From an uncultured Desulfuromonadales bacterium (lineage in GTDB: Bacteria > Desulfobacterota > Desulfuromonadia > Geobacterales > CAIOGM01): a DNA stretch of 32,189 bases. The position numbers and the translations under genes were made by a program. Positions 7,638 to 25,637 of this stretch are shown here, in pieces (within the stretch, counting starts at the first letter, position 1; every line of letters begins with the position of its first letter). The DNA lies in assembly GCA_903929485.1 (NCBI GenBank), contig CAIYUY010000210.1, positions 1 through 32,189 of the forward strand, written 5' to 3'. The notes below the pieces were generated by a model. The model had not been told where the DNA came from. It worked only from the letters and a program-made list of their open reading frames with translations, and did not search any database.

Positions 7638-7946
7638 TTAGAGCTTAATTTCCACATCCACACCGGCCGACAAGTCCAGTTTCATCAGCGCATCCACTGT
7701 CTGCTGCGTCGGATCAAGGATGTCGATCAATCTTTTATGCGTTCTGATCTCGAATTGCTCACGTGATTTTTTATCTACATGAGGTCCTCTGAGAACACAG
7801 TACTTGTTAATAACGGTAGGGAGTGGGATCGGACCTGCAACGCGAGCTCCGGTGCGTTTAGCCGTATCAACGATCTCGCCGACGGACTGGTCGAGCAGCT
7901 TGTGGTCATAGGCCCTTAAACGGATACGAATCTTCTGGGTTTGCAT
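7638..7946 (-). CDS. rpsJ: 30S ribosomal protein S10 (NusE)
   Basis: S10 is a small-subunit head protein and, as NusE, a partner of NusB in antitermination and of NusG in linking transcription and translation. The 102-residue product starts [20 protein letters not shown] and has the family core [23 protein letters not shown], split by conserved residues, and [17 protein letters not shown]. It is the first S10-operon gene and is separated from tufA by 101 bases holding a heptanucleotide palindrome. Confidence 0.98.
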
Positions 7947-7965: not shown

Positions 7966-8042
7966 GTTCTATGTTCTAGGTTCCAGGTTCCAGGTTTCAG
8001 GTTCTAGGTTGAATGTAGAACCTAGAACGTAGAACTTAGAAC
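7966..8042. repeat. Heptanucleotide-periodic palindrome between tufA and rpsJ
   Basis: The 77 bases divide exactly into eleven 7-base units on the plus strand. Units 1-6 are variants of GTTCTAG/GTTCCAG, unit 7 (GTTGAAT) is a spacer, and units 8-11 are the reverse complement type (GTAGAAC, CTAGAAC). The arms can pair over about four units (7966-7993 with 8015-8042) around a 21-base loop, with a few mismatches. No T-run follows on the minus strand, so it is not a classical terminator. A sister element lies after tufB. Confidence 0.9.
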
Positions 8043-8047
8043 AGTTT

Positions 8048-9238
8048 TTATTGAATGATGGCGCTGACTACTCCGGCACCGACGGTCCGGCCACCTTCAC
8101 GGATTGCGAAGCGAAGACCTTCGTCCATGGCGATGGGGGTGATCAGATTTACGGTCATGGCCACATTGTCGCCGGGCATTACCATTTCGATCCCCTCGGG
8201 AAGTTCGGCAACACCAGTCACGTCAGTAGTCCTGAAGTAGAACTGCGGACGGTAACCATTGAAGAACGGAGTATGACGACCTCCTTCTTCCTTGGTCAAG
8301 ACATATGCTTCCGCTTTGAACTTTGTGTGGGGGGTGATGCTCCCCGGCTTGGCAAGAACCTGGCCACGCTCAACATCTTCACGCTTTACGCCGCGGAGCA
8401 GTGCGCCGATATTGTCGCCGGCACGACCTTCGTCCAAAAGTTTCCGGAACATTTCAACACCGGTCACGGTGGTCTTGGCTGTTTTCTTGATACCCACAAT
8501 CTCGATCTCTTCACCCACCTTCACAATACCCCGTTCTACCCGCCCCGTGGCGACCGTACCGCGACCGGAGATGGAGAAAACGTCTTCAACAGGCATGAGG
8601 AACGGTTTATCGATGGCGCGTACCGGCACGGGAATGTAGGAGTCAACCGCCGCCATCAGAGCTTCGATTGCAGGCAGAGCCAGATCTCCGGCATCGCCGT
8701 TCAACGCCTGCAGCGCGGAACCCTTGATGATAGGGATATCGTCGCCGGGAAAATCATAGGAGGAAAGAAGCTCCCTGATCTCCATCTCCACCAATTCCAG
8801 CAGCTCCTCATCGTCCACCATGTCGGCTTTGTTGAGGAACACAACCATGTAGGGAACGCCGACTTGACGGGCAAGGAGGATATGCTCACGCGTCTGGGGC
8901 ATGGGGCCGTCAGCGGCGGAAACGACAAGTATGGCGCCATCCATCTGCGCTGCGCCGGTGATCATGTTCTTGACATAGTCGGCATGCCCCGGACAGTCAA
9001 CATGAGCGTAATGGCGATTATCAGTTTCGTACTCCACATGGGCTGTGGCGATGGTTATCCCGCGCTCTCGCTCTTCCGGGGCGTTGTCGATCTGATCGAA
9101 CGCCTTGAACTCCGCCTGCCCCTTGCCGGCAAGAACCTTGGTAATCGCCGCTGTCAGCGTAGTTTTACCATGGTCCACGTGACCGATAGTCCCGATGTTA
9201 ACATGAGGCTTATTTCTGGAAAATTTTGCCTTGGCCAT
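8048..9238 (-). CDS. tufA: Elongation factor Tu, copy A
   Basis: EF-Tu is the GTPase that brings aminoacyl-tRNA to the ribosomal A site. The GTP-binding motifs are intact: GHVDHGKT at residues 19-26, DCPGH at 80-84 (catalytic His84) and NKAD at 135-138. The 396-residue length is standard for the family, with domains 2 and 3 after about residue 205. The protein is the same as that of the second copy at 24447-25637, but the DNA differs at many synonymous positions and the stop is TAA here and TAG there. It closes the str group (rpsL-rpsG-fusA-tufA), 13 bases after fusA. Confidence 0.98.
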
Positions 9239-24205: not shown

Positions 24206-24355
24206 CTATTTGGTTTCCTTATGGGGCGTATGCAACCGACAGAAGCGGCAGTACTTTTTGAATTCAAGTTTCTGCGGGGTACTCTTCTTGTTCTTCGTGG
24301 TTGTATAATTACGCTGTTTGCAGGTCGTGCAGGAGAGCGTGATGATGTCGCGCAT
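24206..24355 (-). CDS. rpmG: 50S ribosomal protein L33, zinc form
   Basis: L33 is a small large-subunit protein near the E site. The 49-residue product begins [17 protein letters not shown] and has four zinc-ribbon cysteines: C9, C12, C36 and C39. This is the zinc-containing form; the zinc-free paralogue lacks these cysteines. AAGGAATT lies just upstream of the ATG at 24355. A longer frame beginning at 24360 is out of frame with it and is a shadow. It stands between tufB and tRNA-Trp. Confidence 0.95.
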
Positions 24356-24375: not shown

Positions 24376-24439
24376 GTTCTACGTTCTACGTTCAAGGTTC
24401 CAGGTTCAAACGTAGAACCTGGAACCTAGAACCTTGAAC
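24376..24439. repeat. Heptanucleotide-periodic palindrome between tufB and rpmG
   Basis: The plus strand runs in 7-base steps: GTTCTAC twice, GTTCAAG, GTTCCAG, GTTCAAA, one extra C, then GTAGAAC, CTGGAAC, CTAGAAC and CTTGAAC. The second half is the reverse complement type of the first, so the minus-strand RNA can fold into a long hairpin. The unit family and plan are the same as in 7966-8042. Each element begins within a few bases of the stop codon of a tuf gene. There is no terminator-type T-run. Confidence 0.9.
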
Positions 24440-24446
24440 TGATTTT

Positions 24447-25637
24447 CTATTGGATGATGGCGCTGACAACTCCGGCGCCGACGGTGCGACCGCCTTCACG
24501 GATGGCGAAGCGAAGCCCTTCGTCCATGGCGATGGGGGTGATCAGGTTCACGGTCATGGCCACGTTGTCGCCGGGCATGACCATCTCGATCCCCTCGGGA
24601 AGTTCCGCTACACCCGTCACGTCGGTTGTTCTGAAGTAGAACTGCGGACGATAACCGTTGAAGAACGGTGTATGACGCCCCCCTTCTTCCTTGGTCAGAA
24701 CGTACGCTTCCGCCTTGAACTTGGTGTGGGGGGTGATGCTCCCCGGCTTGGCAAGTACCTGGCCACGCTCAACGTCCTCACGCTTTACGCCACGGAGCAG
24801 TGCGCCAATGTTGTCGCCGGCGCGTCCTTCGTCCAGCAACTTCCGGAACATCTCTACACCAGTGACGGTGGTCTTGGCAGTTTTCTTGATACCGACAATC
24901 TCGATCTCTTCACCAACCTTGACGATTCCGCGCTCAACCCGCCCCGTGGCCACAGTGCCGCGACCCGAGATGGAGAAAACGTCTTCAACAGGCATAAGAA
25001 ACGGTTTGTCAATGGCGCGTACCGGCACGGGGATGTAGGAGTCAACCGCCGCCATCAAAGCTTCAATGGCAGGCAGAGCCAAATCGCCGGCATCGCCGTT
25101 CAGAGCCTGCAGTGCGGAACCCTTGATGATCGGGATATCGTCGCCGGGGAAATCGTAGGATGAAAGAAGTTCCCTGATCTCCATCTCCACCAACTCCAGC
25201 AGTTCTTCGTCATCCACCATGTCGGCTTTATTGAGGAACACGACCATGTAGGGAACGCCTACCTGACGAGCAAGAAGGATATGCTCACGTGTCTGGGGCA
25301 TGGGGCCGTCGGCGGCGGATACCACCAGAATTGCACCGTCCATCTGCGCAGCGCCGGTGATCATGTTCTTGACATAGTCGGCATGTCCGGGACAGTCAAC
25401 GTGGGCGTAATGGCGATTATCGGTCTCGTACTCCACATGGGCCGTGGCGATGGTGATTCCGCGCTCACGCTCTTCCGGGGCGTTATCGATCTGGTCAAAC
25501 GCCTTGAACTCCGCTTGTCCCTTGCCGGCAAGAACCTTGGTAATCGCCGCCGTCAGCGTAGTTTTGCCGTGGTCGACGTGACCGATAGTTCCGATGTTGA
25601 CATGTGGCTTATTCCTGGAAAATTTTGCCTTGGCCAT
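24447..25637 (-). CDS. tufB: Elongation factor Tu, copy B
   Basis: Second EF-Tu gene, encoding a 396-residue product with the same sequence as the copy at 8048-9238. GHVDHGKT (19-26), DCPGH (80-84) and NKAD (135-138) are intact. It stands after four tRNA genes in the arrangement known from the E. coli thrU-tyrU-glyT-thrT-tufB operon, so it is called tufB. AGGAGG lies about seven bases before the ATG. Synonymous differences from tufA are spread along the gene, and it ends in TAG instead of TAA. Confidence 0.98.

Follow-up and report, generated by a model that had tools for sequence, protein, structure and literature searches.

The stretch of DNA analysed here, a window of 32,189 nucleotides, contains a ribosomal gene cluster of the str/S10 type on the minus strand and belongs to a host genome of 5.36 Mb that is distributed over 369 contigs. 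Among RpoC relatives with an informative name, the closest ones are of Geobacter type (84–85%). Genes were called as longest open reading frames, and start codons are uncertain. Directly after tufB, at positions 24376–24439, the sequence-only reading had placed a palindrome composed of heptads, and both its exact position and its structure were borne out. The element is 64 bp long, consists of four plus four heptads and can be written as (GTTCNNN)4-GTT-CA-AAC-(NNNGAAC)4. It is separated by 7 nt from the tufB stop codon (24447–24449) and by 20 nt from the start of rpmG at its other end. A sister palindrome behind tufA is located 5 nt from the tufA stop codon and 19 nt from the start of rpsJ (Table 1), in full agreement with the earlier description of two elements at matching places a few bases past the tuf genes. 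It was also correctly recognized that order and number of units differ between the two elements and that synonymous sites of the tuf genes have diverged, the encoded proteins being identical and the DNA sequences 89.8% identical. Heptad runs of three units occur nine times in the window compared to 0.01 expected, and chance is no explanation for the palindromes behind tufB and tufA. RNAs of both elements fold at −33 to −35 kcal/mol, with z values of −7.2 and −7.4 relative to shuffled sequences.

Table 1. Genes and palindrome parts at the two tuf loci; positions refer to the window.
Feature	Position	Strand	Remarks
rpsJ	7638..7946	-	102 aa; next gene past the tufA element
Sister palindrome behind tufA	7966..8042	.	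77 bp; one degenerate unit, GTTTCAG; larger loop
End motif and tufA stop codon	8043..8050	-	sense TAA-AAACT-GTTC
tufA	8048..9238	-	EF-Tu, 396 aa
rpmG	24206..24355	-	49 aa; next gene downstream of the tufB element; name from sequence and gene order
tufB element, left arm	24376..24406	+	four GTTCNNN heptads (TAC, TAC, AAG, CAG) and GTT
tufB element, loop	24407..24408	.	two bases, CA
tufB element, right arm	24409..24439	+	AAC and four NNNGAAC heptads (GTA, CTG, CTA, CTT)
A-rich end motif fused with tufB stop codon	24440..24449	-	sense TAG-AAAATCA-GTTC; fits the family motif TNAAANCN before GTTC
tufB	24447..25637	-	EF-Tu, 396 aa

The palindrome behind tufB is one copy of a dispersed repeat family and was not made for tuf genes. 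In the host genome, the pattern (GTTCNNN)3GTTC is matched 222 times (112 forward, 110 reverse) as opposed to three matches (1 + 2) in a reversed control. Seventeen palindromes feature at least three heptads per arm and those with 2+2 arms raise the total above 20, counts that, like all element counts given here, rest on pattern searches and on the genome stretches read. The neighbouring genes are unrelated, ranging from those for a sugar-isomerase-like protein, an aldo/keto reductase, lactate racemase and histidine biosynthesis to those for a class II tRNA synthetase, RimP, a sensor kinase and an ABC transporter. Hundreds of elements after unrelated genes had been named beforehand as the finding that would speak against a link to tuf; unrelated neighbours were indeed found, although the palindromes amount to dozens, not hundreds, per genome. 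Among 141 genomes of one order, taken as Geobacterales (the host and 140 others), a 3+3 palindrome is present in 46 that are spread in a patchy manner over 15 of 29 genera, while control matches are zero in almost all. A stricter pattern applied phylum-wide is matched in eight of 395 genomes, six of which lie outside the order, in two families.

With regard to viruses, palindromes occur on 73 stretches of viral contigs. One 30-kb phage contig encoding portal and minor head proteins contains 17 of them in 24 kb, and another palindrome-carrying phage contig encodes tail-tube and tape-measure proteins. Densities in phages (0.2–0.7 per kb) lie far above that in the host genome (tens in 5.36 Mb). 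In phages, the loop is frequently longer and partly conserved, resembling GGGGAAAGAGGNGGTTTT. A number of contigs carry many copies (L318, L294, L295, L331 (IMGVR_UViG_3300009634_000151); L297, L299, L344, L365), some of them with GGGGAAAGAGGNGGTTTT as a conserved purine-rich core in the loop. A collection of named phage records yielded no similar sequence, and a plasmid collection only one weak match of 38 nt.

The family follows a common plan: an A-rich end motif and (GTTCNAN)4 lead through GTT into a short loop, after which come AAC, the four heptads complementary to the first arm, (NTNGAAC)4, and a T-rich end motif. Arms were counted in 104 distinct elements, each arm comprising two or more heptads: of the 208 arms, 96 consist of exactly four heptads and 60 of three, counts which, just as those for end motifs and placement, are not fully independent because elements of one order are related by descent. 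A minority of arms is expanded, up to 18 heptads. The heptad consensus reads GTTCNAN (GTTC-N-A-N), with the conservation of GTTC arising partly by construction, since elements were found by requiring it. Within an arm, adjacent heptads resemble each other more than shuffled ones do (0.72 vs. 0.65, SD 0.007), a pattern expected from tandem slippage. Between the two arms, facing heptads match at 0.562, compared to 0.639 in shuffles within the element and 0.577 (SD 0.011) in class-matched arm swaps, and the third variable (last) base matches in 25% only. Covariation between facing heptads was not detected among the 104 elements; selection on stem pairing was therefore rejected, and the strength of the stem does not appear to be finely selected. 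The stem rests on the repeated GTTC/GAAC and on A/T at the sixth base, with no sign of compensatory change.

The end motif, TNAAANCN immediately followed by GTTC, was found on both ends and on flanks adjacent (57) as well as not adjacent (168) to a stop codon; on the latter 168, A accounts for 52–65% at positions −7 to −4. As the A-rich motif lies outside the first GTTC on both ends, the opposite end shows its T-rich complement. Family-wide, the T-rich bases come after an NGN gap, and at least five T within eight positions are present in 25% of the elements.

Several elements depart from the common plan. In L144 (2476–2719), L145 (2050–2288), L148 and L149 the arms are 100–400 bp apart and separated by unrelated sequence, partly other repeats; each of the split-apart arms still abuts a gene end, which suggests later insertions into the loop. 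Single arms of 12–18 near-identical heptads (L155, L156, L279, L280 and L147, positions 5–133) are likely slippage hot spots and might serve as polymorphic markers. In genome G050, an element is found together with its flanks at two places in opposite orientation and with different numbers of units in the arms (L272, L278); this pair represents a duplicated segment in which heptad number changed between copies.

In most cases, the palindromes are located at the end of a gene. Among 52 arrays that read away from a gene 3′ end, 27 begin 4–8 nt past the stop codon, even where more than 200 nt of spacer are free, and other genera show this start as well. In many cases, the stop codon itself falls within the A-rich end motif (TAA or TGA at gaps of 4–5 nt); stop-like triplets frequently appear in the end motif of arms away from gene ends, too. 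Either the end of the palindrome supplies stop codons or the palindrome settles at TRAA sites. A fixed distance after the stop was initially regarded as a rule of its own, a notion that was softened as arms without a neighbouring stop codon also bear the A-rich end motif.

To what extent the palindrome is tied to tuf genes became apparent from a comparison of tuf downstream regions across relatives, in line with the check recommended in the sequence-only reading. In the genomes read, the palindrome does not track tuf beyond the genus. Within the genus, the tufA-rpsJ spacer contains a palindrome in all three readable congeners, the host included (G000, G002, G003). The outermost heptads of these elements are partly conserved while the inner ones differ, showing that the tufA copy is inherited within the genus, with turnover of inner units. 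In other genera, the palindrome is absent from 17 of 17 tufA-rpsJ spacers and from all tufB-rpmG spacers read (a number similar to 17), i.e., there is none at either site in these genomes, all of which had been selected for the presence of the family at other places. Tuf specificity was rejected on these grounds. The tufB-rpmG spacer of most relatives contains strong GC-rich hairpins of unrelated sequence. The tufA-rpsJ spacers of relatives mostly comprise 14–22 nt without a hairpin, while those of a further group are long and contain other hairpins; since this spacer is very short and hairpin-free in most relatives, the tufA copy is not generally needed. For tuf, these observations mean that a hairpin of one sequence or another tends to occupy the position behind tufB, which may favour a hairpin as such. 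With respect to the shared function after tuf that the sequence-only reading considered worth testing, a hairpin in the tufB-rpmG spacer may therefore matter, though the palindrome has no specificity for tuf.

Two further observations concern these spacers. Recurrent hairpins of the type GTAGGGGCG...CGCCCCTAC in tufB-rpmG spacers of other genera (L185–L203) apparently constitute another dispersed repeat. Outside the order, a related heptad palindrome with the units GTTCAGG GTTCAAG GTTCAAG ... CCTTAAA (three times) is located directly behind an rpmG-preceding tuf gene in Deltaproteobacteria bacterium NC_groundwater_1539 (L047, position 141 onward).

As an explanation we favour, with a probability of about 0.5, a mobile or expanding palindromic repeat that persists at the ends of genes, where it would serve as a transcript-end hairpin, with mobility and an effect at the RNA level being what we infer from the data. 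Copies would have spread and would then have persisted chiefly in intergenic positions able to accommodate them, frequently with the A-rich end enclosing the stop codon, and each copy would form a long imperfect hairpin in RNA. Behind the tuf genes, it would act as a transcript-end hairpin within the operon that may slow 3′ degradation or trim read-through, with the outcome that tuf would be set apart from downstream rpsJ or rpmG. For the tuf copies, this preferred mechanism agrees with the fold, with the placement at gene ends and with the observation that unrelated hairpins recur behind tufB. An intrinsic (Rho-independent) terminator was discarded as a candidate: a terminator scan gives no call for the tufB copy, which has no T-run on the sense side and does not combine a GC-rich stem with an immediate T-run. 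A dedicated terminator was likewise dismissed, as the elements favour neither convergent genes nor the ends of operons (29 flanking gene pairs are co-directional, 14 divergent and 9 convergent, compared to 65, 21 and 28 for element-free neighbour spacers). Both this orientation and the missing T-run count against the favoured explanation, as do the lack of covariation between facing heptads, the hairpin-free tufA-rpsJ spacers of most relatives and the fact that neither a transposition enzyme nor a target duplication or empty site was identified. Searches in Rfam returned only matches of the element to miRNA precursors that stay below the gathering score and are due to the hairpin shape. More tentatively, and with a clearly lower chance of being correct, the family could be a movable gene-end module, i.e., an unnamed element spreading in Geobacterales and related lineages, with many copies in phages, the end of which supplies or encloses the preceding stop codon and which would either fix the position of transcript 3′ ends or serve as a target for a dedicated protein. 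What spreads and reads such repeats can be approached from the clear consensus, the distribution across the order, the rule for placement relative to stop codons and the phages with up to 17 copies.

Among the competing explanations, a purely selfish or neutral repeat is a possible one, albeit less probable than the transcript-end hairpin. A mobile or slippage-driven palindrome would then be tolerated where it is harmless to coding ends and ribosome-binding sites, without any function for tuf, and the likeness of heptads within an arm, the expansion of arms up to 18 units, the lack of a functional theme among neighbour genes, the patchy phylogenetic spread and the carriage by phages all agree with this. 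Against this reading, the standard arm length of four and the conserved end motif are more regular than free slippage would produce, all three congeners have retained the tufA copy, and arrays begin 4–8 nt past the stop even in long spacers. That the inverted GTTCNAN arrays act at the DNA level, as sites recognized by a nucleoid or regulatory protein, appears unlikely. GTTC maintained in successive heptads, a free third variable base and the lack of partner covariation do resemble a motif that is read rather than a pure stem, some elements are located between divergent genes, and paired arrays of 4–5 octa- or heptanucleotides on opposite strands have been proposed as IHF/HU sites in Geobacter metallireducens (PMC2700814). 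On the other hand, this binding is a proposal and not a test in that work, no binding protein has been identified, GTTC conservation is partly a product of the element search, and the elements hug gene ends, not promoters.

We attribute a very small likelihood to an mRNA element specific for tuf, or to transfer of an element from one tuf gene to the other along with the 3′ end of the gene. Both tuf genes carry an element, and with 0.90 the tufA and tufB genes of the host are more similar to each other than to the tufA gene of a congener (0.83), which shows that they exchanged sequence after the congeners split. A sequence common to tufB of the host and tufA of a congener, TAG-AAAATC[A/G]-GTTC, had first hinted at an element copied with a converted tuf 3′ end, but was set aside as a trace of copying since AAAANC before GTTC is the general end motif of the family and the elements are not unusually alike. 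The tuf elements rank only 64th in similarity among 210 element pairs and therefore show no sign of recent copying together with tuf; more than 20 copies are present elsewhere in the genome, and none was found at either tuf site in the other genera read. Of the two origins considered in the sequence-only reading, independent derivation from one dispersed family is thus better supported than transfer with a copied 3′ end of tuf. Equally improbable is a REP/BIME element mobilized by a Y1-type REP-associated transposase (RAYT). The elements are palindromic, intergenic and present in dozens per genome, and 44 of the 47 genomes examined contain Y1_Tnp genes, but the number of these genes is unrelated to that of the elements: genome G025 (12 pattern matches, single contig) contains none, while G138, which lacks the element, contains 28. 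In addition, a REP is a single hairpin of 20–40 nt, whereas the present elements are built from heptads in tandem. The RAYT link was rejected in the absence of a correlation, and no enzyme for spreading (transposition) of the family was found, Y1 transposases not following the element.

Multicopy intergenic sequences that lack an explanation are a known feature of Geobacter genomes, and dispersed degenerate heptad arrays similar to those described here, though with other units and in another phylum, exist as STRR heptads in cyanobacteria. With REP/BIME elements the family shares the character of short dispersed intergenic palindromes that occur in tens to hundreds of copies per genome and form hairpins in RNA. 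It differs by the absence of an association with Y1 transposases and by its heptad arrays, the inverted GTTCNAN arrays with flanking TNAAANCN taking the place of a hairpin with a GTAG-type foot. The hairpins in tufB-rpmG spacers of other Geobacterales occupy the same place as the tufB element, but are GC-rich single stems of unrelated sequence without heptads. Closest among described sequences come the heptads of Beggiatoaceae treated below and the paired tandem repeats of classes 1 and 3 of G. metallireducens that have been termed global regulator binding sites (Aklujkar, 2009; PMC2700814). The latter stem from the same order and consist of 4–5 tandem 7- or 8-mers in opposite-strand pairs that occur in many, mostly intergenic copies, and the arrangement of 3–5 such units paired on opposite strands is shared by the present family with its modal 4+4 heptads. 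Compared by published consensus only, the units are different, GTTGCTYN octamers and MTYCTGA heptamers as opposed to GTTCNAN; in G. metallireducens the distance within pairs is variable and insertion sequences lie near some of them, whereas the loop is usually short and the ends are A/T-rich in the elements studied here. The TAACTGA repeats of marine Beggiatoaceae (MacGregor, 2015; PMC4679880) are also intergenic tandem heptads with many sets per genome, including sets beside ribosomal protein genes, but these are direct repeats of another unit, almost never inverted and mostly located just upstream of start codons. The GTTCNAN unit is present neither in the paired arrays of G. metallireducens nor in the heptads of Beggiatoaceae. 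While the broader kind, bacterial intergenic palindromic repeats, is known, the family itself is little described and so far unnamed, and it may already stand among the multicopy sequences listed for G. bemidjiensis or Pelobacter carbinolicus.
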